64,000 nt of DNA from an uncultured Granulosicoccaceae bacterium (lineage in GTDB: Bacteria; Pseudomonadota; Gammaproteobacteria; Granulosicoccales; Granulosicoccaceae). Location: NCBI GenBank assembly GCA_937922675.1, contig CALAJN010000011.1, positions 124,001 through 188,000 of the forward strand, given 5' to 3'. Under the pieces are notes generated by a model, which was given only the letters and a program-made list of their open reading frames with translations, searched no databases and had not been told where the DNA came from. A program made the position numbers and the translations under genes. Positions 41,147 through 61,673 of the stretch are shown here, piece after piece (positions within the stretch are counted from its first letter, which is position 1; each line of letters begins with the position of its first letter).

Positions 41147-41181
41147 GGTGAGTCTCCGATTGATTGAGTCGTTATGAATTG

Positions 41182-41271
41182 GATTCGAATCGCAGCGACG
41201 TTTGCCTGGGTGCGCCTTGATTCGATGGATGTAGTATCGGAGCTTCGGGTTGCGGGTAGATGTATTCGAAT
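41182..41271. promoter_or_regulatory. Paired ATTCGAAT palindromes upstream of the BON gene
   Basis: GATTCGAATC (41182-41191) and ATTCGAAT (41264-41271) are perfect palindromes about 81 bases apart centre to centre. They bracket the gap between the BON gene start and the end of the small gene at 41272. Repeats of this type can be operator sites, but no regulator is known. Confidence 0.35.
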
Positions 41272-41469
41272 TTACGCTGGTGTAAGGTCCGGCGCGGCAA
41301 ATAGCGACAGCACATCTTCGGTTGACAAGCCACCGATACCAGCGGCTTCGTCTTGCTCGATTGTGGCATCGGCCAGGGCCTGTTTGAAACGCATCCATGG
41401 CTTGCTGTCGTTTGCGCGTTTTGCCTGCGCGTCGAATAGCGTGATCGGCATGTCGGTTATTGAAGGCAT
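41272..41469 (-). CDS. Small hypothetical protein divergent from the AddB-like gene
   Basis: Product of 65 residues that I do not recognise: a hydrophilic, balanced sequence including LFDAQAKRANDSKPWMRFKQ and GIGGLSTEDVLSLFAAPD. No membrane helix, zinc site or signal peptide is seen. It looks more like real protein than the opposite-strand frame, which is unusually rich in Cys, Ser and Arg over the same bases. If real, the AddB-like gene must start downstream of 41469. It precedes the BON gene on the same strand. Confidence 0.5.
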   Translation of the reverse strand: MPSITDMPITLFDAQAKRANDSKPWMRFKQALADATIEQDEAAGIGGLSTEDVLSLFAAPDLTPA

Positions 41470-41593
41470 GGTGATAGCCTACCGGCCGGGCGAGACCGAT
41501 TGCGTCTATCGCGGGAAAAGACTGGCAATATATCCAGGTATTTGCTGCTCTTCAGACACGTCCAACACCGACACTCAGGATGTAGCCAACAAC

Positions 41594-44290
41594 GTGCAAG
41601 ACGCCTTCGATTTCAGCGACCCGGATGCCGGGACCAGCGTAGCGCCGGACCCGAGTGCCACTGATATTGACAATTTGCTTGACCTTGCGGCCCATGCTAC
41701 CGAGCGTACCCATGGCGCAGGGGGCGGTATTGTCATTGCCACCGTCAACCGGCGGCTGGCGCGTCATTTGTCCACGCGTTTTGTGCAACGGCAGAGTGGA
41801 GCCGGCCGCACCTGGTGGGAGACGCCGTCAATTCTGCCGCTGTCCAACTGGCTTACTGCCTTGCATGACGAGGCGTTGGCTGCGGGCACCTCGCAACGCT
41901 CCCGCCTGGCACCGCTGGCAGCGCGCTTGCGTTGGCGTCGTGAGGTGCAGCGTCGTCACAGCAAGTTGCTGGATGTCGACTCTGCAGCGCGGGAGGCCAT
42001 GCGCGCATGGCGTCTTGCACATGCCTGGCATTGCAACCCAGATCGACAAACCTATCTGGCGGACGATGTACACGCATGGTCAGGCTGGGCCGATGCCTAC
42101 GCTAACTCACTCGAGGCCGATCAGTTGGTGGACGAAGCCACCTTGCCCGGACACTTGTCAACCCTCGTGCAAGAGCGCAAGTTGAGGCCACCACAGACGC
42201 TGGTGCTCGCAGGTTTTATCAGTCCGACGCCCGAGTTGCAGGCCATGGTCGCAGCGTTTGAGGCGGCAGGTACCCGCGTCGTTTTTCCGGTTGATTCTCC
42301 GCCTGCTGTGCCACGTTGTATGTCGTGGCATGACGATGCTGAAGAGCTGGCAGCTGTTGCCAGCGAGGTGCGGCAGCGCCTTGATGTCAGCCCGGACGCT
42401 GTGCTCGGTGTTGTGGTGCCTGATCTGGATTCGCGACGGGTTGAGGTGTTGCGGGCATTTGACAACTGTTTTTTTCCGGGACTTTCGCCTGCCATGATCG
42501 ATGCGCGGCAGCGGCCTTACGATCTCTCGGCGGGCTTGCCATTGCTCGACAACCCGGTGGTAGCCACTGCCTTGCAGATTCTCACGCTTGCCTGGCAAGG
42601 GCTCGACCGTCATGGCGTCTCTGCCTTGTTGTTATCGCCTTATCTCAAAAGTGCGGAGGCCGAGCGAAGCGATCGTCAATCGGCCGAGCGTACCTTGCGT
42701 GACTGGCGCGTCCGACGCGCAGACCTCGAACGCTTTCGCCGGCGTCTTGCCAAGGACAGTGATTTGGGTGCTCCCTTGTATGGGTTGGTGCAAGAGCTGG
42801 CTGAGCAACGTGAAGCTGATGCGGGCAAAGGCGCTGCGCGATCCGTATGGGCGACGCGCTTCTCGGCGGTGCTCAAGGCCTTTGGTTGGCCGGGGGAGGG
42901 GCTCGGTAGTGAGGAGCATCAGGCCGTTCAGGCTACTCACGCTGTGCTTGATGATCTGCAAGCGCTGGATGACAGCGATCTGTTGACAGTGTCGACGGCT
43001 CTCTCCGAGCTCAAGCGCCTCGCGCGCGAGCGCGTGTTCCAACCGGAGACACCGGACGTACCGGTGCGTGTGCTTGGGCGCCTTGAGAGTCATGGTCAGC
43101 ACGTCGACGTGCTCTGGATCACCGGCCTCGATAGCGAACGCTGGCCTGCTGCGGCGCGTCCTACCCCGTTTCTCCCTGTACTACAGCAACAAGAGGTGGG
43201 TATGCCAGAGGCCTCACCTGAAGCGCGACTGAGACTTGCCAAGCGTGAGTTCAGGCACTGGTGCGCCAATGCGCCCGAAGTCGTCGCAAGTCATGCGAGA
43301 GAGCGTGATGACAAGCCTTTGGTGGCAGCGCCCGTCCTTGCTGACATCCTTGAGGGTGAGGCGGCTGCCTTGCAGGTGTTTGATCTGGTTCGCTCAGCGA
43401 CTGGCACCGAAGTCATCAATGATGCGCGTGGTCCTGATGTGATGGCAGGTACTCCGGTACGCGGTGGCGCTCGTTTACTTGAGGATCAGGCGGCTTGTCC
43501 CTTTCGTGCCTTTGCGCTTCACAGACTCGAGATTCGTTCGCTGGAAGAGGCAGGCCTGGGGTTGGACGCACGTCAGCGTGGGACCTTTCTGCACCGCGCG
43601 CTGGAGTTTTTTTGGCAAGAGACTGTCACTCACAAGGCCTTGCTTGACTTGTCGGACGAAGATCTCGGCGAGCGTGTGCAAGTAGCGGTCGATGCATCCT
43701 TGTCAGAAGATGAATTTGTCGACAAGACTATTTCGCTTCTTGAGCGAGAGCGCATCGCTCGATTGATTCGTGAGTGGCTCGAAGGTATTGAAATGCCGCG
43801 CACACCGTTTGAAGTAGAAGCCTTCGAGCAGGCCGTCGAGTTTGAACACTCAGGGATCGCCATCAACCTCAAGATAGATCGCGTGGATCGGGTAGGTGAC
43901 GCACGCGTGGTGATTGACTACAAGTCAGGTACTACCAACAAGATTGACAGCTGGGGCAAGGAGCGAATCGCGAATCCACAGTTGCCTCTCTACGCCCTCG
44001 CTCGTGATGACATTGATGGTGTTGCCTTTGCGCAGATCGCACGTGAGAAGTGCCGCTTTGTCGGTATAGCGGGCGACTCGGATCTCCTGGAGGGTGTGGG
44101 GTCTGGTGATCCGCCACTGAGTTGGGAGGATTGGCGTGCGCACTGGCAGCGTGCTCTCAATGTGGTGGTCGAAGAGATTGCGCACGGGCTTGCCGTGCCC
44201 ACACCCGGCCCGGATACCTGCAAGTATTGTGAGTTGAAAGGTCTTTGCCGCGTGGCAGTAGACGCTTCACTGGACGAGGACGGCGCATGA
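41594..44290 (+). CDS. AddB-like PD-(D/E)XK nuclease, DNA double-strand-break repair subunit
   Basis: About 898 residues. The N-terminal part is a degenerate helicase-like domain (GGGIVIATVNRRLARHLSTR, WWETPSILPLSNWL). The C-terminal part is a RecB-type nuclease (GTFLHRALE, KIDRVDRV, VVIDYKSG). Four cysteines placed for an iron-sulfur staple are seen: one in QAACPFRAFA and three in CKYCELKGLC. This matches AddB and the related family TIGR03623, partners of AddA. The frame is open back to ATG 41174, but the stretch before about 41560 has non-coding composition and lies over the small minus-strand gene; GTG 41594 is my best start, ATG 41468 an alternative. The stop overlaps the helicase gene (ATGA). 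Confidence 0.85.
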   Translation: MQDAFDFSDPDAGTSVAPDPSATDIDNLLDLAAHATERTHGAGGGIVIATVNRRLARHLSTRFVQRQSGAGRTWWETPSILPLSNWLTALHDEALAAGTSQRSRLAPLAARLRWRREVQRRHSKLLDVDSAAREAMRAWRLAHAWHCNPDRQTYLADDVHAWSGWADAYANSLEADQLVDEATLPGHLSTLVQERKLRPPQTLVLAGFISPTPELQAMVAAFEAAGTRVVFPVDSPPAVPRCMSWHDDAEELAAVASEVRQRLDVSPDAVLGVVVPDLDSRRVEVLRAFDNCFFPGLSPAMIDARQRPYDLSAGLPLLDNPVVATALQILTLAWQGLDRHGVSALLLSPYLKSAEAERSDRQSAERTLRDWRVRRADLERFRRRLAKDSDLGAPLYGLVQELAEQREADAGKGAARSVWATRFSAVLKAFGWPGEGLGSEEHQAVQATHAVLDDLQALDDSDLLTVSTALSELKRLARERVFQPETPDVPVRVLGRLESHGQHVDVLWITGLDSERWPAAARPTPFLPVLQQQEVGMPEASPEARLRLAKREFRHWCANAPEVVASHARERDDKPLVAAPVLADILEGEAAALQVFDLVRSATGTEVINDARGPDVMAGTPVRGGARLLEDQAACPFRAFALHRLEIRSLEEAGLGLDARQRGTFLHRALEFFWQETVTHKALLDLSDEDLGERVQVAVDASLSEDEFVDKTISLLERERIARLIREWLEGIEMPRTPFEVEAFEQAVEFEHSGIAINLKIDRVDRVGDARVVIDYKSGTTNKIDSWGKERIANPQLPLYALARDDIDGVAFAQIAREKCRFVGIAGDSDLLEGVGSGDPPLSWEDWRAHWQRALNVVVEEIAHGLAVPTPGPDTCKYCELKGLCRVAVDASLDEDGA

Positions 44291-47200
44291 ACAAGGCACT
44301 TGCAGACGCCGCCGAGCGTATACAAGCGCTGGATACAACGCGCTCCTTCATCGTTCAGGCACCTGCAGGTTCAGGCAAGACAGAGCTGCTGACGCGTCGT
44401 GTATTGACCTTGTTGACTACAGTTGACCGGCCCGAAGAAGTCCTTGCAATTACCTTCACGCGCAAGGCCGCAGCCGAGATGCGACATCGCGTTGTCATGG
44501 CCTTGAAGCGCGCCAGCGATCAGGCTCCGGTCGACGATGTCTACGAGCAGGAAGGGCTGGAGCTTGCGCGGCGTGTGCTGGCACGAGACGGCGACCTGGG
44601 CTGGCAATTGATCGAGGATCCTGAACGCCTTGGCATCCGCACCATTGATTCGCTGGCGACAAACCTGGCGCATCGTCTACCGGTGTTGTCGTCTCTGGGT
44701 GCTGCAACCGGTTTGGTTGACGATGCCAGCGCTCTCTATCAGGAAGCCGCCGAGCGTTTCATTGATCAGCACATAAGCAAGATTGCTGCGGTCTCGCAGA
44801 AGCTTGATAACCGCCTCGAAACCCTGCGCGGCTTGTTGGTCAACTTGCTGGCAGTGCGTGATCAGTGGGTTCGTTATGCCGTTGAAGACTTCACGGATGA
44901 TCGCTTGCGTGAAGTGCTTGAGCAGATGCTGTGTGCCTTGCTCCAGTCTCGCGTGCGGGCCTTGTGCGCATCAGCGCCACCAGGGCTTGGCGCCTCTTTG
45001 CTGCCGGTAGTGCAAGGCTGCGCGTTTTATCTACGTGAGCTCAAGGCAGTCGGTGCGCTTGAGCTGGAAAGTCCACACCTCGCGGTACTCGCTCTGGCGG
45101 ATGCGCTCGAAGCCTCCGGTGGACAGTTGCCTGATAGCGAGGTTGACGAGATAGGCAGCTGGTCGTTGATAGCGGACTTCCTGTTGACCACCTCCGGTAC
45201 ACCGAGGCGCAAGCTGACGATCAAGGAAGGGTTTCCAGCGCAGTCAGCAGACAAGCAGATCAGTGCCAGCAAGAGCGAGCTCAAGGAACACAAGGCCACA
45301 GCAGAAGACATGCTGCGCCAACTCGACGGTGAGTCCACCTTCACTGAGCTGCTCGCTGAGGTGCGCAAGCTGCCTGAGCCGCACTATCGGGACGAGGATT
45401 GGGCGCTGCTTGGGCAGTTGGGTGTTGGTTTGCAATACCTTCTCGCTGAGTTGCAGTTGGTATTTGCCGAACGTCGCGAAGTGGATTTTCTTGAAATCTC
45501 TGCAAGAGCCTTGCAGTCACTCGGTGACGACCAGACGCCTACGGATCTCTCGCTGGCGATGGATCTCAAGATAAAGCACCTGCTGGTTGATGAGTTTCAG
45601 GACACCTCTCGCGCCCAGTTTGCGTTGTTCGAGCGCCTGGTCGCGGGTTGGGAGCCCGGTGATGGAAGGACCTTCTTTGCTGTTGGCGACCCGATGCAAT
45701 CCATCTATCGGTTTCGTGAAGGCGATGTTGGTCTGTTCTTGCAGGCAGTGGACGAAGGGATCGGCCCTGTTGATCTCCAGCCACTAAAGCTGGTCGTCAA
45801 CTTTCGATCTGTGCCAGCCGTTATCGACTGGGTCAATGCACGTTTCTCGGCGGCCTTTCCTGCTCGGTCTGATCGCGATATTGGTGCAGTGACCTATGAG
45901 CCGTCAGAGCCAAAGCCATCGGAAAGGGACAAGCCGGACAAGGGTGAAATCAGGATGCATGTGCTTGAGCGCGACGCCACTGGAGGTGCATCCGTACCCG
46001 ACGCCAATGCGGCAGCAGAGGCCGAGCAGGTAGCCAGTCTTGTGGCTGCATCTCTTGCTGAAGATAGCCAAGGGACGGTGGGGATATTGTTGCGAGCCCG
46101 CACGCATGCACCAGCGATAGTGAGCGCCCTGCAGGTACGCGGTATACCGTTTCGCGCAGTGGAACTTGAGCGGTTGGGTGACAGGCCTGTAGTGCGCGAT
46201 ATCGTGGCTTTGGTTCTGGCACTGCGCTATCCACACGACCGAATCAGTTGGCTGTCCCTGTTGCGTGGGCCGCTTTGCGGGCTTGTGCTGTCTGACCTGC
46301 ACGCGCTATGTGCGGATAGCCATCGTGAGTCCGTGATAGAACTGGCGCAACAAACAGCACGTGTCGCCTTGATGAGTGCTGATGGCCAGAAGCGTCTGCA
46401 AGGCTTTTTGAATGAGGTCTTGCCTGCTGTGCACAGCGCGCCGCGCACCAGGATTGTCCCGTGGGCTGAAGCCTTGTGGCTACGACTCGGTGGGCCTTCG
46501 GTCTGTGTGGACGATGTCGATCTTGATGCGGCCGAGAGAGCATTGATACGGCTGGCCGCGCTTGAGCAGAATAGCGGTTTGTGGCAACGCCAGGCAGTGG
46601 CGCAGGCGATGGAGTCGCTCTATGCCGGCGAAAATCCTGACCCCGCGGCACAACGCGTGCAACTGATGACTTTGCACAAATCCAAGGGGCTGGAGTTTGG
46701 CACGGTGATTCTGCCGTCTCTCGGTCGGCAAGGTCGTGGCGATGATCGGCGCTTGTTGGACTGGTACGAATCCACGATTGATGGCCGACCCAGCTTGCTG
46801 CTCGCACCCATTGATGCTCCCGGTATCAATGACGGGCAACGCAGCGCGATTGGACGCTTGCTCAGGCGATTCAGAAGTCGTGCTGATGAGGCAGAGCGGC
46901 TGCGCCTGCTGTATGTAGCCTGTACCCGTGCGCAGCGTCAGCTGCACCTGGTCGCAACACTTGCCTGCGGTGATGATGGCATGGCCAAGGCGCCCGCCAG
47001 CGGTAGCTTGCTCGCGCCGCTGTGGCCGCAGCTATCAGCAGAACACGGACGTTTGCGTGAGCCTCTATCCGAACCTGTGGCTGACACTGGCCTGGCAACG
47101 ACCAGAGCAGCCAACGAGCCTCATTTGGCAGAAGACGATTGCAGTATTCAACGAGCACCCTTCAAGCGCACTGTTTCAGACTGGGCGTTCCCACAGCTTG

Positions 47201-47802
47201 ATGCTTTTGTCTGGCAGAACACGCCGCCGGTAAAGCTTGCCGCCGTTGCGATCGAGTACGACTGGCAGGGCAGTACCGCAAGAGATGTGGGTACTGCCGT
47301 ACATCGAGAGCTGCAACGCCTTGCAGATATACCTCATGCCGAGCGCGCGCCTCCGGGTAGTGAGGATCTTGGCAGGATCGCCCGACAGCTGCGCACGCTC
47401 GGTGTCGTTGAGGCATCACTGGATGATGCGGTGGCTCAGGTCGCTCAGGCCTTGCGCAATACACTCGATGATGAGCGCGGACGTTGGACCTTGCATAGCC
47501 ACAAGGAAGCGCGCAGTGAATGGGCACTCAGCGTGCCGCATGTCCACGGTAAGCGTGTTGTCAGCGTCGAGCGCATCATCATTGATCGCACGTTTGTTGA
47601 TACCGACGGCAACCGATGGATCGTGGACTACAAGACGGGCTCACATGCTGGTGGAGGACTTGATGCCTTTCTTGATCGCGAAGTGGAGCGATATCGTGAG
47701 CAATTGGAGACTTATGCGCGCGTGATGCAGCGTATTGATCCTGAACATGCAGTCAGAGTGGGGTTGTGGTTTCCGATGGTGCGTGGGTGGCGGGAGTTGT
47801 GA
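44287..47802 (+). CDS. AddA-like UvrD/Rep superfamily helicase-nuclease
   Basis: ATP-driven 3'-5' helicase with a C-terminal nuclease, 1171 residues; with the upstream AddB-like protein it should process DNA double-strand ends for RecA. Walker A is APAGSGKTELLTRR (near 25), then ITFTRKAAAEM, LLVDEFQDTSRAQ with the Walker B DE, AVGDPMQSIYRFREGD, LMTLHKSKGLEF and LLYVACTRAQ. The RecB-type nuclease end has GTAVHRELQRL and WIVDYKTG. ATG 44287 overlaps the AddB-like stop (ATGA). Both subunits therefore carry nuclease motifs, as in AddAB rather than RecBCD. Confidence 0.92.
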   Translation: MNKALADAAERIQALDTTRSFIVQAPAGSGKTELLTRRVLTLLTTVDRPEEVLAITFTRKAAAEMRHRVVMALKRASDQAPVDDVYEQEGLELARRVLARDGDLGWQLIEDPERLGIRTIDSLATNLAHRLPVLSSLGAATGLVDDASALYQEAAERFIDQHISKIAAVSQKLDNRLETLRGLLVNLLAVRDQWVRYAVEDFTDDRLREVLEQMLCALLQSRVRALCASAPPGLGASLLPVVQGCAFYLRELKAVGALELESPHLAVLALADALEASGGQLPDSEVDEIGSWSLIADFLLTTSGTPRRKLTIKEGFPAQSADKQISASKSELKEHKATAEDMLRQLDGESTFTELLAEVRKLPEPHYRDEDWALLGQLGVGLQYLLAELQLVFAERREVDFLEISARALQSLGDDQTPTDLSLAMDLKIKHLLVDEFQDTSRAQFALFERLVAGWEPGDGRTFFAVGDPMQSIYRFREGDVGLFLQAVDEGIGPVDLQPLKLVVNFRSVPAVIDWVNARFSAAFPARSDRDIGAVTYEPSEPKPSERDKPDKGEIRMHVLERDATGGASVPDANAAAEAEQVASLVAASLAEDSQGTVGILLRARTHAPAIVSALQVRGIPFRAVELERLGDRPVVRDIVALVLALRYPHDRISWLSLLRGPLCGLVLSDLHALCADSHRESVIELAQQTARVALMSADGQKRLQGFLNEVLPAVHSAPRTRIVPWAEALWLRLGGPSVCVDDVDLDAAERALIRLAALEQNSGLWQRQAVAQAMESLYAGENPDPAAQRVQLMTLHKSKGLEFGTVILPSLGRQGRGDDRRLLDWYESTIDGRPSLLLAPIDAPGINDGQRSAIGRLLRRFRSRADEAERLRLLYVACTRAQRQLHLVATLACGDDGMAKAPASGSLLAPLWPQLSAEHGRLREPLSEPVADTGLATTRAANEPHLAEDDCSIQRAPFKRTVSDWAFPQLDAFVWQNTPPVKLAAVAIEYDWQGSTARDVGTAVHRELQRLADIPHAERAPPGSEDLGRIARQLRTLGVVEASLDDAVAQVAQALRNTLDDERGRWTLHSHKEARSEWALSVPHVHGKRVVSVERIIIDRTFVDTDGNRWIVDYKTGSHAGGGLDAFLDREVERYREQLETYARVMQRIDPEHAVRVGLWFPMVRGWREL

Positions 47803-54492: not shown

Positions 54493-54863
54493 CAGGCGTC
54501 AGTCTCGCTGGCTTGTTTGTCAGGTCGATCAGCTGGCCGTGCTGGTGGGTCTTCGCTCAACAGTCGTGATGCAGCGAAGCCCACAGCGACGGCTGCCAGC
54601 GCGAACAATGCAGGCTTTTCTGTTGCGAGTTTGCGTCCGGCATGCAAAAAATCTTCGACGCTCATGGATTCCACTTGCTCTGCCATATCGGCAAGTTGAC
54701 TCGAAATCGTACCCGCGTATTCGCGAACACCGACCTCAGCGGCATGCAGCCCTTCACTCAATGATGCTGCGCCGCGCGCGGCAACCTCGTCACGTGCCTG
54801 CCGGATGGTATCGATGGCTTCCGTAGCCACATCTGTGGCATCACGGTCATCAGAACGAGTCAC
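54492..54863 (-). CDS. DUF883/YqjD-like C-terminally anchored protein
   Basis: Product of 123 residues, first gene of the trio. A long amphipathic helical region (ATEAIDTIRQARDEVAARG, YAGTISSQLADMAEQVESM) precedes a single hydrophobic segment (ALFALAAVAVGFAASRLL) and a short polar tail. This fits the nutrient-deprivation-induced and ElaB/YqjD-like families, which in E. coli bind ribosomes to the inner membrane in stationary phase; that role is not shown here. Its stop touches the next start (one-base overlap at 54492). Confidence 0.72.
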   Translation of the reverse strand: MTRSDDRDATDVATEAIDTIRQARDEVAARGAASLSEGLHAAEVGVREYAGTISSQLADMAEQVESMSVEDFLHAGRKLATEKPALFALAAVAVGFAASRLLSEDPPARPADRPDKQASETDA

Positions 54864-55018
54864 TCGGGATATCCTCCAATGAGAATTGACGTCGGATTCT
54901 CAGCCGACAATAGCGGTACTGTACATGCTGGCACTCCGCTGACTGTATGGCCGTGTACTGGCAAACTGCAGACCAGGCCTCACCGCAGTGACCCGAGCTT
55001 CCTGCAAGGAGAGTTGTC

Positions 55019-55687
55019 ATGCAACAAGACTACTGGTTGAAAGCCTGGGACGAAAATCGCACCGGTTTTCATCAGGACCAGGCGAACAAACGGCTGAAGC
55101 GTTTTTGGCCAAAGCTCGGCCTGGCGGCTGGAGCAGAAGTGTTTGTACCGCTTGCCGGCAAGACGCTCGATATGCTGTGGTTGCATGAGCAGGGCTATCG
55201 TGTTTTCGGGGTGGAGCTGTCGAGAAAGGCGGTTGAAGCCTTTTTTGCTGAAAACAAGCTGGCCCACACGACTCACAAGACGGACCGCGGTACCGAGTTT
55301 CGTGGCTCAGCTGCAGCCGCTGGGCTGCGCGTACTGGCGGGCGATTTCTTTGACCTGGCTCCCGTTGACCTTGAGGGCATCACTGGTGTGTACGATCGCG
55401 CTTCGCTGATTGCCATGGATGAGTCGATGCGCGCTGAATACACCAGGCAACTGGCAAAACTGGTTCCGCGCAGTGCACGAGGGCTTCTTTTGACCATTGA
55501 CTATGACCCATCGCGAATGCAGGGACCGCCCTTTGCGGTACCCGATGCGACCACGCGTTTGCTGCTGGAGGAGGGCTTCGAGATCGAGGAGCTTGAGAGG
55601 TATGCAGGGCCCGAGCGCCTTGGCAACTTGAAAGGCCGTGGACTGGATACACTTGTAGAATATGTCTACCGGCTTACCCGGCGGTAG
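55019..55687 (+). CDS. tpm: Thiopurine S-methyltransferase (TPMT)
   Basis: SAM-dependent methyltransferase of 222 residues. The N-terminus YWLKAWDENRTGFHQDQAN, then VFVPLAGKTLDMLWL and VFGVELSRKAVEAFF, are diagnostic, followed by LRVLAGDFFDL and VYDRASLIAM. Bacterial members methylate thiopurines and also tellurium and selenium oxyanions; the Pseudomonas syringae gene was found as a tellurite-resistance determinant. Ribosome site GGAGAG is eight to nine bases before ATG 55019. The oxyanion- and envelope-stress genes begin about 100 bases downstream on the same strand, with a hairpin between. Confidence 0.93.
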   Translation: MQQDYWLKAWDENRTGFHQDQANKRLKRFWPKLGLAAGAEVFVPLAGKTLDMLWLHEQGYRVFGVELSRKAVEAFFAENKLAHTTHKTDRGTEFRGSAAAAGLRVLAGDFFDLAPVDLEGITGVYDRASLIAMDESMRAEYTRQLAKLVPRSARGLLLTIDYDPSRMQGPPFAVPDATTRLLLEEGFEIEELERYAGPERLGNLKGRGLDTLVEYVYRLTRR

Positions 55688-55693
55688 AGGGCC

Positions 55694-55726
55694 TGCGGTC
55701 AGCCACTCGTCTGCCGTCTGACCGCA
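55694..55726 (+). terminator. Perfect 9-bp hairpin after tpm
   Basis: TGCGGTCAG (55694-55702) and CTGACCGCA (55718-55726) pair perfectly around a 15-base loop seven bases after the tpm stop. Only TT follows, so termination may be partial and allow read-through into the downstream stress genes. Confidence 0.45.
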
Positions 55727-55792
55727 TTCCGGTCATGTTCTGGTCGCGCGTGTCAGCCCCCCCACCCGCGTCAGTCACTGTATGGTGCATTT

Positions 55793-55987
55793 ATGAGTAC
55801 AGAATCCACATCGCCAGTGCGGCACAAGCCAGCGCCGGCATCCGCAGTACGTCAGCACGAGACCGGTCAGCAGACTCCGGCCCAGACGCGCGATCGCATT
55901 ATTCCCAAGCCACTGCAACGTGTACTGGGGTTTTTCGTGCTGCTGTTCTCGGTAGGCTTTGTGTCGTGCCACGCGCTCCTGAACTGA
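55793..55987 (+). CDS. Small one-helix membrane protein, first gene of the XpaC-TelA operon
   Basis: Product of 64 residues, not recognised. A polar, Pro/Gln/Thr-rich N-terminus (PVRHKPAPASAVRQH) leads to one hydrophobic helix at the C-terminus (LGFFVLLFSVGFVSCHALLN), giving a tail-anchored topology. The gene ends 19 bases before the XpaC-like gene and has a similar start region (MSTE versus MSTS), so it is probably co-translated with it. A small partner or adaptor of the membrane proteins is plausible, but only by position. Confidence 0.65.
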   Translation: MSTESTSPVRHKPAPASAVRQHETGQQTPAQTRDRIIPKPLQRVLGFFVLLFSVGFVSCHALLN

Positions 55988-56006
55988 GTCGACAGGAGAC
56001 AGAGTC

Positions 56007-56858
56007 ATGAGTACAAGCGTTCGTCCCTACGACCCTGATGCCAAGCAACCGATCGTCTGGCGCGGCTGGTTGTTGTATCTGTTGCCCTTGCCACTGCTGC
56101 CAGCGACGTTTCTGGCGCTTGCGAGCGGCAACGTGGGCGCAGCCTTGGCGCGAGCTGCCGGCTTTGTGTTGATCATGGGAGCCGCGAGCTTCATCAGAAA
56201 AGGCATCAAGATCGACAACGAGGCCGTGCGTCGCAACTTGCGTCGTCGTGCCAGCACCGTTCGTTATCGCTTTGTTGGGGCCATCATGGCCTCAGTCGGG
56301 ACTTTTCTGGTCGCCTGGATTGGCATTGTTGGTAGTCACGGTCTGATCTCGTCAATCCTGTTTGCGCTCGCCGTGCTTGGCGGCTGCTATTTGTATTACG
56401 ACTTTGATGACCCTGCGCGCCTGCCTGGCGTCGCTGGTGTGGGTATCACCAACGAAGAGTTGATTGAGCTACTCGACGAGGCCGAAGGACGAATACAACG
56501 GATAGAAGCGGATGCACGGCGCATCAATAACACTGAATTTCGTGACCGTCTGCGCCGTATCGCCGTTGAGGCACGCGAGATCCTGCGCACCATTGAGCAA
56601 GATCCAGTTGACGCTCGCCGAGCGCGCAAGTTTCTAAAGGTGTACCTGGATGGTGCACAGCAAGTGACAGAGGGTTATGCGCGCGCTCACCGCGGAGAAA
56701 AGGACCCTGCACTGGAAGACAACTTTCGTCGTGTGCTCGGCACTATCGAGACAGTTATCGGTGAGCAGCAGAAAAAGCTTGCCGAGAATAATTCCACTGA
56801 TCTTGACGTGAAGATCGAGGTGCTACAGATGCAGTTGGAACAGGAGGGCGTGGTATGA
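56007..56858 (+). CDS. XpaC-like protein (5-bromo-4-chloroindolyl phosphate hydrolysis family)
   Basis: Membrane protein of 283 residues. Hydrophobic segments near 20-40 and 45-60 are followed by a basic loop (VRRNLRRRASTVRYR) and two further helices (about 90-105 and 110-130). The C-terminal half (about 145-280) is a soluble helical domain: ELIELLDEAEGRIQRIEADA, AREILRTIEQDP, ARKFLKVYLDGAQQV, typical of the XpaC family (Halogen_Hydrol). The name comes from an old screen; no hydrolase chemistry is proven. Such genes sit next to telA in many bacteria, for example xpaC-yaaN in Bacillus subtilis, as here. A good GGAGA ribosome site precedes ATG 56007. Confidence 0.85.
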   Translation: MSTSVRPYDPDAKQPIVWRGWLLYLLPLPLLPATFLALASGNVGAALARAAGFVLIMGAASFIRKGIKIDNEAVRRNLRRRASTVRYRFVGAIMASVGTFLVAWIGIVGSHGLISSILFALAVLGGCYLYYDFDDPARLPGVAGVGITNEELIELLDEAEGRIQRIEADARRINNTEFRDRLRRIAVEAREILRTIEQDPVDARRARKFLKVYLDGAQQVTEGYARAHRGEKDPALEDNFRRVLGTIETVIGEQQKKLAENNSTDLDVKIEVLQMQLEQEGVV

Positions 56859-56886
56859 CCGGGAACAGGGGAGATTCTCAGCGATC

Positions 56887-57165
56887 ATGAGATTGATTGG
56901 TCCCTGGCTGTTCGTCCTTGTGGGTCTGGCTATCGGTCTTGCGACGACTCGTGCTTTTGGCAGCAACCCCTTGCGATTCCTGCCTAATGCGGTGATGGGT
57001 GTTGTGGGCTCGTTCTTCGGCCTGTTCGTGCGTGATGTATTCGATGTGACCTGGGGTGGCAAGCTGGGTGGTGCATTCGTTGCGGCTGTTGTTGGTGCAC
57101 TGGTGCTGACCGTGATCGGAAACCTCGCCTATAACGCTCTGTTGCTCAAGCGGGACCCTGATTGA
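56887..57165 (+). CDS. GlsB/YeaQ/YmgE-like small membrane protein
   Basis: Product of 92 residues with three hydrophobic helices (WLFVLVGLAIGLATTRAF, FLPNAVMGVVGSFFGLFV, GGAFVAAVVGALVLTVIGNL). The Gly-rich pattern with an N-terminal GLxxG-type helix and GGxxGA in the third matches the YeaQ/transglycosylase-associated family, which is linked to general stress. It lies 28 bases after the XpaC-like gene and is probably in the same transcript. A run of seven T (57187-57193) follows and may mark an attenuator before telA. Confidence 0.75.
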   Translation: MRLIGPWLFVLVGLAIGLATTRAFGSNPLRFLPNAVMGVVGSFFGLFVRDVFDVTWGGKLGGAFVAAVVGALVLTVIGNLAYNALLLKRDPD

Positions 57166-57294
57166 CCCTGGTGGCTGGGCGGTACCTTTTTTTGTGACGT
57201 TTTGTTGACAAGGCCGATTCTGGCCGAGTTGACCGGGACGTGAGAGCCGCATTGCAGTATGGTTGGAGGTTGATTTCGCGAAGGAGAACGAGCC

Positions 57295-58509
57295 ATGTCA
57301 ACCCCTAGCGCCTCCGTGCAGGACAGAACCCAGGTAGACCTTGCCACGGCCAATGCCGATCTGATCTCCGGGAGCGAGCTGCTACTCCCTGAAGTCGCCA
57401 ACGAAATGGTCCCCTATGAGCGAGTGGATCCTGAGGAGCGGGCGCGTATTGACGGGTTGATGCAGGAGATCAATCTCTCGGACTCCAACTCGATCATCTT
57501 TTTTGGCAGCAAGGCTCAGCAGGAGCTGACCACCATCTCCGACAGCATGCTCGAGGGTGTACGCAACAAGGATCTGGGCTCTGCTGGCAACTCGCTCAAT
57601 GACATGGTCACGGTGCTGCGAGGTTTTGAAGTTGCTGACTACGATCCGCGCGCCAAACCGAATATCTTTGTGCGTTTGTGGCGCAAGTTGTTTGGTGGCA
57701 TTACTCCGGTCGCCAAGTTCATACAACAGTACGAAGGCGTGCGCAAGCAGGTCGATGTAGTAACCGATGATCTTGAAGGGCACAAGACGCAACTGCTGCG
57801 TGACATCAAATCGCTCGACAAGTTGTATGCCGCCAACCTCGACTATTTCCACGACCTTGAGGTCTACATCCTCGCTGGCGAACAAAAACTTCAGATCATT
57901 GATCGGGACATCATCCCGGCTGCCGAAGCAGAGGCTGCCAATTCCGATGATGTGCTCAAGGCGCAGGAGCTGCGCGACGTGCGTTCCGGTCGCGATGATC
58001 TCGAGCGTCGGGTGCATGATCTCAAACTCACGCGTCAGGTTGCCATGCAGGGTTTGCCGAGCATCCGCCTGATTCAGGAAAACGACAAGGGCCTGGTCAA
58101 CAAGATCAATTCAACCCTGGTCAACACCGTACCCTTGTGGCGCCAACAGCTGGCCCAGGCGGTCACGATTTTTCGATCTGCTGAGGCTGCCAAGAGTGTG
58201 CAGCGCGCATCAGACTTGACCAATGATCTTCTGGAAAAGAACGCAGAGAACCTGAAGACAGCCAACCGCACGGTACGCGAGGAGCTCGAGCGCGGCGTGT
58301 TTGATGTCAATGCGGTTCGTCGTGCCAACGAAAACCTGATTGCGACTGTCGAGGAATCACTGCAGATCGCTGATGAAGGCAAGCGCCGTCGCGCAGACGC
58401 CGAGAAGCAACTCGTCGAGATGGAAGAGGAGCTGAAGCAAACCCTGAAATCTGCTGCTGCCAGTGCATCAAATGTTGCCTCTGGCACCACCGCTGGCGTT
58501 CGAGGCTAA
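57295..58509 (+). CDS. telA: Toxic anion resistance protein TelA family
   Basis: Soluble, largely helical protein of 404 residues. Typical blocks are IIFFGSKAQQELTTISDSML, LFGGITPVAKFIQQYEGV, LRDIKSLDKLYAANLDYFHD and AGEQKL, then MQGLPSIRLIQENDKGLV and the C-terminal coiled coil (EKNAENLKTANRTVREELER). Named from tellurite resistance on RK2 (KlaA/TelA); the wider family appears in envelope-stress operons with XpaC, SPFH and PspA-type partners. A strong ribosome site (AAGGAG, 57281-57286) and a 129-base leader precede ATG 57295, so it may have its own promoter; a TTGACA lies at 57205-57210. The SPFH gene follows after four bases. Confidence 0.92.
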   Translation: MSTPSASVQDRTQVDLATANADLISGSELLLPEVANEMVPYERVDPEERARIDGLMQEINLSDSNSIIFFGSKAQQELTTISDSMLEGVRNKDLGSAGNSLNDMVTVLRGFEVADYDPRAKPNIFVRLWRKLFGGITPVAKFIQQYEGVRKQVDVVTDDLEGHKTQLLRDIKSLDKLYAANLDYFHDLEVYILAGEQKLQIIDRDIIPAAEAEAANSDDVLKAQELRDVRSGRDDLERRVHDLKLTRQVAMQGLPSIRLIQENDKGLVNKINSTLVNTVPLWRQQLAQAVTIFRSAEAAKSVQRASDLTNDLLEKNAENLKTANRTVREELERGVFDVNAVRRANENLIATVEESLQIADEGKRRRADAEKQLVEMEEELKQTLKSAAASASNVASGTTAGVRG

Positions 58510-58513
58510 ACCG

Positions 58514-59626
58514 ATGGGACTTCTGGACAAGCTGTTTGGTGAATTTGTAGACATCATCGAGTGGACTGATGATTCGTCCAACACAATGGTGTACCGCTTT
58601 GAACGTTACGGTAACGAGATCAAGTACGGCGCCAAGTTGATCGTTCGGGAGTCGCAGTATGCGGTGTTTGTCAACGAGGGGCAGGTGGCGGATGTGCTTG
58701 GTCCGGGAACATGGGAGCTTGAGACCAAGAACCTGCCGCTGCTGACAACGCTCAAGAGCTGGCAGCACGGGTACAGCAGCCCGTTCAAGTCAGAGGTCTA
58801 TTTTTGTAATGCGCGCCGCTTTACCGATCTCAAATGGGGCACCAAGCAGCCCCTGATGTTACGTGACGCCGAGTTCGGTGGTCTGCGCCTGCGTGCCTTT
58901 GGTACTTACGGTGTGCGTATAACTGACCCACTGACGTTTATTCGCGAGATCGTAGGCACAGAAGGCGTGTTCACGACAGAAGAGATCTCCGATCAGCTGC
59001 GCAATCTGATCACCTCGCGGTTTGCGACGATCATCGGATCAGCCAATATCCCGATCCTCGATGTGGCAGCTAATCAGGATCAGCTGGGTGAATTTCTGAC
59101 CAAGCGTATCGCCCCCGAGTTCGGTGAGTATGGTCTTGAATTGACCAAGCTCCTGGTGGAGAACATCTCTCTGCCGCCAGCGGTCTCTGAAGCGCTCGAT
59201 AAGAGAACCTCGATGGGCATGACCGGCAACCTTGATGCGTATTTGAAGTATCAGGCAGGTGAAGGCCTGGCGCAGGGTGGTGGTGCCGGCGATGTAGTCG
59301 GCATGGGGGTCGGACTTGCAGTTGGTCGGACTATGGCCGAAGGGGTAGGGCAAGCAACTATTGCCGGCGGTGGCGCTGGCTTGCCACCACCGCTGAAGAA
59401 CGCGCCCAGGTTTCATGTTGCACTGGCTGGTACAGCCGATGGCCCGCACACGCTGGAGACATTGAGCAGCATGGTCGATGCAGGCAAACTCACGCGGGAA
59501 ACGCTTGTGTGGACGCCAGAGCTGACTGACTGGACGGCAGCCGCACAGGTGCCCGGCGTGGCCGCCCTGTTCGGTGAGCGTGCGGCTACACCGCCGCCAC
59601 TGCCATCGCCCACCACCTCTGGCTGA
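58514..59626 (+). CDS. SPFH-domain protein with C-terminal GYF_2 domain (YdjI-like)
   Basis: Product of 370 residues. The N-terminus GLLDKLFGEFVDIIEW and the following MVYRFERYGNEIKYGAKLIV are those of the YdjI/virion-core-like SPFH family; the SPFH core runs to about 240 (FTTEEISDQLRNLITSRFA, LDVAANQDQLGEFL). A Gly/Ala-rich stretch (about 255-300) leads to a GYF_2 domain (about 307-365: FHVALAGTADGPHTLETLSS, ETLVWTPELTDW), which binds partner peptides. No membrane helix is seen. It begins four bases after telA and precedes the zinc-ribbon gene. SPFH proteins mark membrane microdomains, so it may scaffold the TelA system. Confidence 0.88.
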   Translation: MGLLDKLFGEFVDIIEWTDDSSNTMVYRFERYGNEIKYGAKLIVRESQYAVFVNEGQVADVLGPGTWELETKNLPLLTTLKSWQHGYSSPFKSEVYFCNARRFTDLKWGTKQPLMLRDAEFGGLRLRAFGTYGVRITDPLTFIREIVGTEGVFTTEEISDQLRNLITSRFATIIGSANIPILDVAANQDQLGEFLTKRIAPEFGEYGLELTKLLVENISLPPAVSEALDKRTSMGMTGNLDAYLKYQAGEGLAQGGGAGDVVGMGVGLAVGRTMAEGVGQATIAGGGAGLPPPLKNAPRFHVALAGTADGPHTLETLSSMVDAGKLTRETLVWTPELTDWTAAAQVPGVAALFGERAATPPPLPSPTTSG

Positions 59627-59667
59627 ACAGTTTTGAGTAAGCCAACACATCGATTCCCTGTATTGAT

Positions 59668-61011
59668 GTGAGCAACAGTGACAAGCGTGACGCGGGTGAC
59701 CTCAAGGAGCGTCTGGTTGCCATGGAAGAGGCTGCGCGTCGCGGTGAGGCCTACCAGTGGGATACGCAGGTTGCAGAGCGTGTTGGCGAGGCGCGCACGC
59801 GAAGCCTGACCGAGACACGTTTTCCCTGTGGGCAGTGTGGGGCGTCTCTGCACTACGCGATAGGAACCGACTCACTGTCATGTCGGTACTGCGGGCATCT
59901 CAACCAGATCGAGCAAGGGCACGAGCCACTGGTCGAGCTTGACTTGCATACAGCACTTGCGGAGCTGGAGCAAGCCGAGAGGCGCTCACCCGAGTCGCAG
60001 ATAATATCGTGCCCGAACTGTGCGGCGAGTTTTGCCCTGGATGCCCATATCCACGCTGGTGAGTGTCCGTTCTGCGGCACGGGGGTCGTCACCGAGACCG
60101 CAGACAGCAAGCCGATCAAGCCCAGGGGTTTGTTGCCTTTTGCCATCACTGCCGAGCAGGCGCGCGAGTTTTACAAGAGTTGGCTCAAGTCACTGTGGTT
60201 TGCACCGAACGCGCTCAAGGAATTCGCCCGTGATGATGCGCAGCTCAATGGCGTATATATCCCGTATTGGACATACGATAGCGACACTGCCACTGCCTAT
60301 CGCGGCCAGCGCGGCGATGTCTACTACGTGACGCAACGCTACAGAACCGTTGTCAATGGGCGCAGCGTATCGCGTACGCGACGCATACCCAAGATCCGTT
60401 GGTCGCCGGCATCAGGCCGAACATCCCGGCACTTTGACGATGTGTTGGTCGGTGCAACGCGCACCTTGCCGAGAAAGATCACCGACTGGCTCGCGCCCTG
60501 GGATCTTGAAAAGCTGGTGCCGTATCGCGAGGATTACTTGAGTGGATTCTCCAGTGAGGTGTACCAGGTTGATCTGGATGAGGGTTTCAATCATGCGCAA
60601 GCGATCATGGACAAGGTCATACGTGGCGATGTGAGGCGATCGATCGGTGGGGACCAGCAGCGCATACATTCGCTGCGAACACAACACAGCGACACCACCT
60701 TCAAACATGTCTTGTTGCCGGTGTGGAGCGCAGGCTTTACCTTCCGCGACAAGAGCTACCGATTTGTTGTCAATGGGCGCAGTGGCAAGGTACGCGGTGA
60801 GCGGCCCTGGAGTAGGGTCAAGATTGCACTAGCGGTGTTGGCGGCGCTGGCTGTGGCGCTGCCGCTGTTGTTTTTTGTCGCGGCCTCGCAGAGTGGCAGT
60901 ATGAGCGCGGGCAGGACGCTTGAATTCGACTTCAATCTGCCTCGTTACGAAGTGTTTGACTGGAGCGGTGAACCGTCACCGTCAAACTGGCCCCAAGGAA
61001 GTAACTGGTAG
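59668..61011 (+). CDS. Double zinc-ribbon, single-helix membrane protein (YdjG-like)
   Basis: Product of 447 residues. Two zinc ribbons lie in the N-terminal third: CGQC with CRYC, and CPNC with CPFC. A beta-rich middle follows (VYIPYWTYDSDTATAYRGQR, ISGF-like LSGFSSEVYQVDL, HVLLPVWSAGFTFRDKSYRF), then a hydrophobic helix near the C-terminus (IALAVLAALAVALPLLFFVA) and a periplasmic tail of about 40 residues. Databases often call such proteins 'primosomal protein N-prime', which is misleading since no helicase motif exists. YdjG of Bacillus subtilis has this layout and sits with YdjI. The start is GTG 59668, 41 bases after the SPFH gene. Confidence 0.85.
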   Translation: MSNSDKRDAGDLKERLVAMEEAARRGEAYQWDTQVAERVGEARTRSLTETRFPCGQCGASLHYAIGTDSLSCRYCGHLNQIEQGHEPLVELDLHTALAELEQAERRSPESQIISCPNCAASFALDAHIHAGECPFCGTGVVTETADSKPIKPRGLLPFAITAEQAREFYKSWLKSLWFAPNALKEFARDDAQLNGVYIPYWTYDSDTATAYRGQRGDVYYVTQRYRTVVNGRSVSRTRRIPKIRWSPASGRTSRHFDDVLVGATRTLPRKITDWLAPWDLEKLVPYREDYLSGFSSEVYQVDLDEGFNHAQAIMDKVIRGDVRRSIGGDQQRIHSLRTQHSDTTFKHVLLPVWSAGFTFRDKSYRFVVNGRSGKVRGERPWSRVKIALAVLAALAVALPLLFFVAASQSGSMSAGRTLEFDFNLPRYEVFDWSGEPSPSNWPQGSNW

Positions 61012-61118
61012 CGACAGCCGCCGTGGGTTGTGCAGCTATCCCACTAGGCAGGCTCCTGTTTGTTTCGTAAGATCAACCGCCCTGTAGGCCGGCATGGCCG
61101 TGCATCCAACCTGGTTCG

Positions 61119-61673
61119 GTGAATATGCTCCTCGATACGCCCGCAGTTGATCTTGGTTGGAAAGCTCCCGACTTTACCTTGCCCGATCTGGACGGTTCAC
61201 CGGTCTCGTTCGGCGAGAGCCTCGGTGCCAAGGGGGCGGCTGTGATTTTCATGTGTAATCACTGTCCGTACGTCAAGGCGATCATGACGCGACTGGTTGA
61301 AGATGCGAAGGTGCTGATGCAAGAAGGGTTTGGTGTTCTTGCGGTGATGTCCAACGACTATCAGTCAGTGCCGGCTGACAATCCCGCGGCCATGCGTGCC
61401 TTTGCTGAGCAGTATGGAATGCGTTTTCCCTACCTGCTCGATGAGGATCAGTCAGTTGCTCGTGCGTTCGGTGCGGTTTGTACGCCTGATATCTTCGGTT
61501 TTAACAGTGATGGTGAACTGCATTATCGGGGTCGCTTTGATTCTGCGGGTATGGGGCCTGCCGCCGGGCGTACTGCGGATTTGCAAGAGGCTATGCGGCA
61601 GATCGGGCGTACGGGCAAGGGGCCTGTTGAGCAGGTCGCGAGTGCGGGCTGTTCGATCAAGTGGCGCGTGTGA
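61119..61673 (+). CDS. Thioredoxin-fold protein (AhpC/TSA-like, CxxC)
   Basis: Soluble redox protein of 184 residues. The fold is seen in APDFTLPDLDGSPVSFG, the active site in FMCNHCPYVKAIM (CNHC), then VMSNDYQSVPADN and the family pattern ARAFGAVCTPDIFGF with the cis-Pro. This group is annotated as thioredoxin-family or peroxiredoxin-like and usually occurs without a partner. No signal peptide is present. The first start is GTG 61119; ATG 61125 is two codons in. It is separated from the zinc-ribbon gene by 107 bases. Confidence 0.9.
   Translation: MNMLLDTPAVDLGWKAPDFTLPDLDGSPVSFGESLGAKGAAVIFMCNHCPYVKAIMTRLVEDAKVLMQEGFGVLAVMSNDYQSVPADNPAAMRAFAEQYGMRFPYLLDEDQSVARAFGAVCTPDIFGFNSDGELHYRGRFDSAGMGPAAGRTADLQEAMRQIGRTGKGPVEQVASAGCSIKWRV

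Follow-up and report, generated by a model that had tools for sequence, protein, structure and literature searches.

We analyzed a 64,000-nucleotide stretch of DNA from an uncultured Granulosicoccaceae bacterium (contig CALAJN010000011.1, positions 124,001 to 188,000; hereafter the window), in which seven genes on the + strand include telA, the only TelA gene of this genome. The source is a Granulosicoccus-like gammaproteobacterium, whose nearest relatives with names are MAGs of Granulosicoccaceae/Granulosicoccus. The first gene, tpm (55019-55687), encodes a thiopurine S-methyltransferase (TPMT) of the Se/Te type by NCBIfam. Its product matched PF05724 with 205.6 bits (cut-off 26), TIGR03840 'TMPT_Se_Te' with 226.6 (cut-off 223.2) and NF009732 with 236.1 (cut-off 213), and its nearest solved relative was 1pjz. 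The second, an open reading frame (ORF) of 64 amino acids (55793-55987), belonged to no Pfam or NCBIfam family; alignment showed it to be a conserved microprotein lengthened at its N-terminus, and the nearest relative, genome G003, has a similar extension. The core of the microprotein, 28 codons plus stop with a single transmembrane (TM) helix, lies at 55901-55987. An XpaC-like protein (56007-56858; PF10112, XpaC/Halogen_Hydrol, 89.4 bits, cut-off 29.8) follows, with four hydropathy-predicted TM segments and then a soluble C-terminal domain. Downstream are a small membrane protein of the YeaQ/Transglycosylase-associated type (56887-57165), whose PF04226 match of 21.6 bits was under the cut-off of 25.3, and TelA/YaaN (57295-58509; PF05816, 367.4 bits, cut-off 30), predicted to be all-helical with three long helices. 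The sixth gene (58514-59626) encodes a YdjI-type SPFH protein (PF13421 Band_7_1, 325.5 bits, cut-off 24) with a C-terminal GYF_2 domain (49.5 bits, cut-off 25.8). The last (59668-61011, GTG start) encodes a double zinc-ribbon protein of YdjG-like layout, which had no Pfam match above cut-off; eight Cys form four CxxC pairs, and the protein has a beta domain and one predicted C-terminal TM helix (386-404). No TM segments were predicted in TelA, the SPFH protein or TPMT. Ter-family proteins (terB/C/D/Z) were absent from the seven products and from the flanking proteins scanned.

The seven genes and the gaps among the last six (19, 28, 129, 4 and 41 bases), as given in a preliminary description of this DNA, were confirmed in the sequence; tpm is separated from the small ORF by 105 bases. 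To place the locus, the TelA of the window was sought in 57 genomes, its own included, and was present in 32/36 Granulosicoccaceae genomes and in 0/21 others. When 369 genomes of the class were searched with a profile, 46 gave a TelA match, above cut-off in 39, so the protein is not confined to the family. We then took 7-16.5 kb around telA from 31 Granulosicoccaceae relatives and compared these loci by tblastn and hidden Markov models (HMMs). Sequence upstream of telA was present in 30 of them, the contig of the 31st (G028) starting within telA. The microprotein, xpaC, telA, SPFH and zinc-ribbon genes occurred in one order and on one strand in 30/30 of these loci, and tpm lay upstream of the operon in 26/30. 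A separate contig of G028 ends in addA-tpm-xpaC, which brings the relatives with linked tpm to 27/31. Because relatives repeat the order and strand, the arrangement is not due to chance, and the linkage of tpm and the small protein to telA, on which the preliminary description had staked its reading, was borne out. We propose, with a probability of about 0.6, that the locus is a Pseudomonadota XpaC-TelA (YaaN) envelope-stress operon of the order microprotein-xpaC-telA-SPFH-zinc ribbon, and that tpm is a stable upstream gene of this operon in Granulosicoccaceae.

The alignment of ORFs indicated that the 64-residue proteins of the window and G003 are extended versions of a single-helix protein of 27-30 residues. 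Its core is under strong coding constraint: among 23 genus members, window included, the differences per pair at codon positions 1/2/3 were 7.57/1.46/14.31 over 25 codons. Between the window and G003, they were 3/0/17 over the last 27 codons and 16/7/22 over the 37 codons of the less constrained N-terminal extension. The window core has ATT where most other members start with ATG, so translation there starts at the upstream ATG at 55793 or at a rare start codon. The microprotein was found in all 30 family loci with upstream sequence, weakly in two (E 1e-3 to 5e-4). Its consensus is approximately MPKxLQ[RK]IIGFxxLLxTVGxxSCQALL, with one Gly in 49/49 aligned members and the Cys in 34/49. The SC near the helix end resembles a lipobox, and a lipoprotein was considered; since the Cys is not fixed, a TM helix is favored. 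Four members had no Pfam match at E<=1, and NCBIfam gave one chance-level match (0.21). Our searches of an open-licence library, in which most subscription journals are missing, gave no paper on the microprotein.

A first HMM, built from 19 family rows, gave 44 matches at E<=0.01 among 22,064 ORFs, in 44 of the 55 loci with xpaC; 19 of these matches were the training rows. All 44 lay directly upstream of xpaC, 43 by a distance rule and the one in L042 by hand, as the xpaC ORF there extends further upstream. Outside the family, matches were present in 13 of the 24 class loci with xpaC, and a fitting small ORF was recognized by eye in six more (L065, L068, L077, L080, L082 and L085). The HMM was later rebuilt from 49 members and run on nine named loci, two of which (L120 and L124) duplicate training loci. 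In five of the remaining seven (L123, L125, L128, L129 and L131), the top match was the ORF upstream of xpaC. The E-values were 1.3e-11 and 5.9e-13 in two Campylobacterota metagenome-assembled genomes (MAGs), 5e-11 in Crenothrix, 1.8e-10 in L123, which is kin of a training locus, and 0.011, a weak match, in a Lysobacterales MAG. No match upstream of xpaC was obtained in Saccharospirillum (L132) or Ezakiella (L134).

The rest of the operon is also found beyond Granulosicoccaceae. Of the 24 xpaC-bearing loci from other families of the class, 16 had the SPFH gene and 11 the zinc-ribbon gene. XpaC was matched in 41 of 398 phylum genomes, above cut-off in 37. Of 20 phylum loci fetched, 13 had xpaC followed directly by telA, all in one family (f223) of another class, presumably Alphaproteobacteria; the SPFH gene was present in 13/13 of these and zinc-ribbon matches in 11/13. 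By these frequencies in the class and f223 loci, the union of xpaC-telA with the SPFH/zinc-ribbon genes is common in Pseudomonadota. The merger of the two modules postulated in the preliminary description is thus real and is not peculiar to this DNA. A small hydrophobic ORF, agreeing in position and appearance with the microprotein, lay upstream of xpaC in 11 of the 13 f223 loci; these ORFs were selected on hydropathy and location, without a null model. The gammaproteobacterial HMM ranked such ORFs first (E 0.1) and third (E 1.1) among 5,418 ORFs, and the codon-position differences in 10 of the 11 were 7.93/3.78/9.24 over 14 codons; homology to the gammaproteobacterial microprotein is suggestive only.

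Other arrangements of telA and xpaC were also observed. A tandem pair of XpaC-type ORFs lies upstream of telA in L170. A divergent TelA type, with no xpaC, SPFH or tpm matches nearby, was seen in 13/37 class loci (L086-L092 and L094-L099). TelA-like proteins were also found on 618 PLSDB plasmid records, mostly from Acinetobacter and Enterobacter, of which 572 are predicted to be conjugative; all of these proteins are <60% identical to the window TelA.

The YeaQ-type gene, proposed in the preliminary description as an extra membrane part, was located between xpaC and telA in the window only and in 0/31 of the relatives' telA loci. Copies were present elsewhere in the genome in 9/11 other genomes searched, and that of the nearest relative, 74% identical, is located away from the operon. 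On these grounds the gene was ruled out as an operon part. A promoter scan of positions 54860-61400 found 0 sites against 2.4 expected; 12 terminator-like sites were found there against 5.6 expected, every one within a gene. A hairpin in the gap between tpm and the microprotein was considered as a terminator and rejected (z 0.08 vs shuffles).

The structure model of TelA had a pLDDT of 73. Its best VIA Z score, 11.8, was to alpha-helical pore-forming proteins and is below the level that is meaningful for helical bundles, and Foldseek gave no match at E<=0.001. Accordingly, an ESCRT-III/PspA-like or pore-like fold was not retained. No PspA or ESCRT-III protein appeared among the best 50 rows of each listing, which proves nothing. 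Comparison of the TelA profile with PDB gave no clear relative of solved structure; the best match was a weak one to a phage P4 protein (4blq, E 0.0009) over profile positions 44-113 (70 positions). The top row for the zinc-ribbon model was the C-terminal domain of YpeB (5boi), also weak (Z 4.9, 66 residues).

We next considered the upstream neighbors of the operon. Clustering of ORFs near telA revealed addA upstream in 25/30 family loci, with about 1.6 kb separating addA and tpm in L035, and a second cluster, located still further upstream and present in 16 loci, was taken for addB. The common order in the family is addB-addA-tpm-microprotein-xpaC-telA-SPFH-zinc ribbon. In the genus loci other than those of the window and G003, tpm was present in 18/21, with 10-79 bases between the tpm stop codon and the start of the microprotein ORF. 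The window carries addA (UvrD helicase-nuclease; 44245-47802) and, upstream of it, an addB-type gene for a PD-(D/E)XK protein (41174-44290), both on the + strand. In the window and G003, addA is on the same strand and upstream, 7-9 kb off, while tpm stays at the operon; the insert of about 7 kb between addA and tpm in the window carries AlkZ-like, FtsX/ABC, AI-2E and holin-X-type genes. The AI-2E gene was beside the operon in 0/31 relatives (26 with enough upstream sequence), and the redoxin and Gfo genes of the window adjoin it in 1/31 (G003). Three genomes, G031, G029 and G033, lack addA, their best matches being distant UvrD-type proteins, and retain tpm. Linked tpm was missing in four relatives; addA is kept in G021, G002 and G025, and both genes are missing in G030. 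Thus tpm tracks the module more than it tracks addA, though not absolutely. Two wrongly cut rows (L032 and L056) were included in training the tpm HMM; tpm at both loci was found independently by tblastn. Beyond Granulosicoccaceae, a linked tpm occurred in 0/24 class loci with xpaC and in 0/20 phylum loci, as judged within the fetched stretches, which reach >2.2 kb upstream of telA in 21 of the 24 class loci.

Four family genomes (G009, G010, G011 and G022; completeness 63-92%) lack telA, a linked-type TPMT and an addA orthologue, as if the block had been lost or left unassembled as a whole; G009 has a TPMT paralogue.

TPMT was sought in 59 genomes, including 36 of the family. Each family genome had one strong TPMT, except G034 (two), G025 (a fragment only) and G010, G011 and G022 (none). 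On a tree from which a 99-residue row (L143) was left out and in which a long-branch row (L154) was retained, linked and unlinked TPMTs were separated with 2 label changes, a number as low as which was obtained in 0/500 shuffles. Two changes rather than one also mean that the linked TPMTs do not demonstrably form a single clade. All four genomes without linked tpm carry the other paralogue (in G025, a fragment at a contig end), compared with 1/28 genomes with linked tpm (G034). Counted as events, 2/2 losses of tpm carry an unlinked TPMT (a fragment in G025), and two events are not enough to test the association (sign test p 0.5). The paralogue appears to replace the function of the lost linked TPMT. 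This would mean that TPMT acts in parallel to the module rather than as a physical part of it, and it suggests that tpm is an add-on and not a core gene. In the window enzyme, the motif PLCGK reads PLAGK; the Cys was present in 42 of the 45 rows compared, in two of which the pattern landed elsewhere.

Several observations weigh against the proposed reading. The constancy of addA almost equals that of tpm, so inherited gene order may account for some of the tpm linkage, and the gap between tpm and the small ORF in the window is as long as 105 bases. On a tree of TelA and SPFH sequences, in which long branches misplaced outgroup rows, linked tpm was lost in two events that left the rest of the operon intact; tpm is therefore dispensable to the operon. 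The predicted fold of TelA gave nothing decisive. Among the 24 class loci with xpaC, L072, L083 and L084 have no candidate microprotein, the candidate in L078 is ambiguous, and L063 has too little upstream sequence. The constancy of addA and the two tpm losses with the module retained would both fit an explanation in which addB-addA-tpm-module is an inherited block without functional tie and microprotein-xpaC-telA-SPFH-zinc ribbon is the only real unit. We regard this explanation as rather unlikely. Its difficulties are that tpm persists in three genomes without addA and in two with addA split off, that the AI-2E, redoxin and Gfo flanks of the window are beside the operon in <=1/31 relatives, and that linked and unlinked TPMTs separate on the tree.

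The published phenotypes of the xpaC-telA pair mainly concern stress to the envelope or membrane, and the effect on tellurite is smaller (papers are cited by PubMed Central number, from excerpts of each text). In Lactococcus lactis overproducing membrane proteins, an XpaC-like gene was up 10.3-fold and telA1 3.44-fold, and joint deletion of the two partly impaired growth (PMC3139573). A Listeria telA mutant is reported to have 4-fold higher susceptibility to nisin and 2-fold higher susceptibility to tellurite (PMC12791056, citing Collins 2010). An operon responding to tellurium or selenium, in which the oxyanion is handled or kept out by TelA, XpaC and their partners and is methylated and volatilized by TPMT, and in which tellurite or selenite induces expression, would agree with several facts. 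The enzyme scores above the Se/Te-type cut-off; Rhodobacter sphaeroides telA and a TPMT gene of Pseudomonas syringae appear in a review as distinct determinants of tellurite resistance (PMC6955997); Te derived from tellurite is a substrate for methylation by human TPMT (PMC11742336); and a small RNA that lowers ORF53, TelA, TelB and TelC of the orf53-telA-telB-telC locus makes L. cremoris more tellurite-sensitive (PMC13109727). Such a function is nevertheless distinctly improbable in view of the predominance of membrane and cell-wall stress in the phenotypes of the pair (PMC12791056, PMC3139573), the 44 other xpaC loci without linked tpm within the fetched stretches, and the statement in the same review that negligible Te leaves the cell in volatile methylated form (PMC6955997). 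The most likely function of the operon, in our analysis, would be protection of the membrane and envelope under stress, to which TPMT would add detoxification in this lineage.

For this envelope-stress operon, XpaC with its four TM segments, together with the microprotein and the zinc-ribbon protein with one each, would anchor the soluble TelA and SPFH-GYF2 proteins at the inner membrane, and the assembled complex would stabilize the stressed membrane. The anchoring is modelled on Bacillus subtilis, where YdjI and PspA are brought to the membrane only with the help of YdjG and YdjH (PMC8581546). The microprotein most likely would bind the TM bundle of XpaC, acting as a regulator or small subunit. 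TPMT would methylate toxic chalcogen species (Te, Se or reactive sulfur) in the cytosol, so that chemical protection by TPMT would be co-expressed with physical protection by the membrane assembly. PspA/IM30 (PF04012) gave 0 matches in the window genome, as the preliminary description had stated, while a control detected it in 9/14 named genomes. We infer a PspA-less membrane-protection assembly from the stress phenotypes, the recruitment by YdjG and YdjH, the weak YpeB likeness of the zinc-ribbon model and the absence of PspA. TelA may take the place of PspA in it; the TelA model speaks neither for nor against this. A bolder proposal, whose odds we put slightly short of even, is that a single-pass microprotein of 27-30 residues, encoded directly ahead of xpaC, is an overlooked core subunit of Gram-negative XpaC-TelA systems, controlling or completing the membrane domain of XpaC, and that Granulosicoccaceae co-express a chalcogen methyltransferase with this membrane machinery, coupling physical and chemical protection.

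TelA was named after tellurite and XpaC after a phosphatase-type stain; both are widespread, and to our knowledge neither has a known mechanism. The xpaC-telA-SPFH-zinc-ribbon set itself is already known. As far as our searches show, and within the literature examined, three findings are new: the family-wide linkage of tpm, what became of this linkage in relation to addA and to the TPMT paralogue, and the conserved microprotein. Because most of the gammaproteobacterial loci examined have it next to xpaC, the microprotein provides a concrete handle on XpaC-TelA regulation. The tpm linkage joins two separately listed tellurite determinants, so that a single strain would suffice to test a 'toxic-anion' against an 'envelope' function. 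As to the interpretation offered in the preliminary description, the linkage of tpm and the small protein and the absence of PspA hold, while the YeaQ part and the special status of the merger do not.

Among known systems, the operon resembles B. subtilis pspA-ydjGHI in combining an SPFH protein with a double zinc-ribbon TM protein. YdjG is described as combining a pair of zinc ribbons with a YpeB-related domain and a TM segment, with which the weak YpeB match of our zinc-ribbon model agrees (PMC11237479); in the excerpted text of that paper TelA and XpaC are not mentioned. Unlike pspA-ydjGHI, the operon has TelA and XpaC instead of PspA and a YdjH-type protein, and its SPFH protein ends in GYF_2 where YdjI has a zinc ribbon. 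No Pfam match to a YdjH-type TPM_phosphatase was found at E<=0.1 among the seven products. The order telA, SPFH, zinc ribbon is shared with Paracoccus ferrooxidans (CP038202.1), where a DUF2927 gene separates telA and the SPFH gene and no XpaC or tpm match was found on that strand of the stretch. The TPMT is like the bacterial enzyme of P. syringae (1pjz) in being full-length and above the Se/Te-type cut-off; unlike it, the window gene sits in a telA operon and Ala replaces the usual Cys of PLCGK. In the neighboring XpaC- and TelA-type genes, the locus resembles the Firmicutes xpaC-telA/yaaN operons (L. lactis llmg_1115-1116 and Listeria lmo1966-1967). xpaC is upstream of telA in 30/30 relatives with upstream sequence, and the window has the YeaQ-type gene between them. 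The one Firmicutes-type locus examined (L134) had no microprotein match beside xpaC. Unlike the Firmicutes operons, that of the window adds the SPFH-GYF2 and zinc-ribbon genes, a TM microprotein at its head and tpm upstream.

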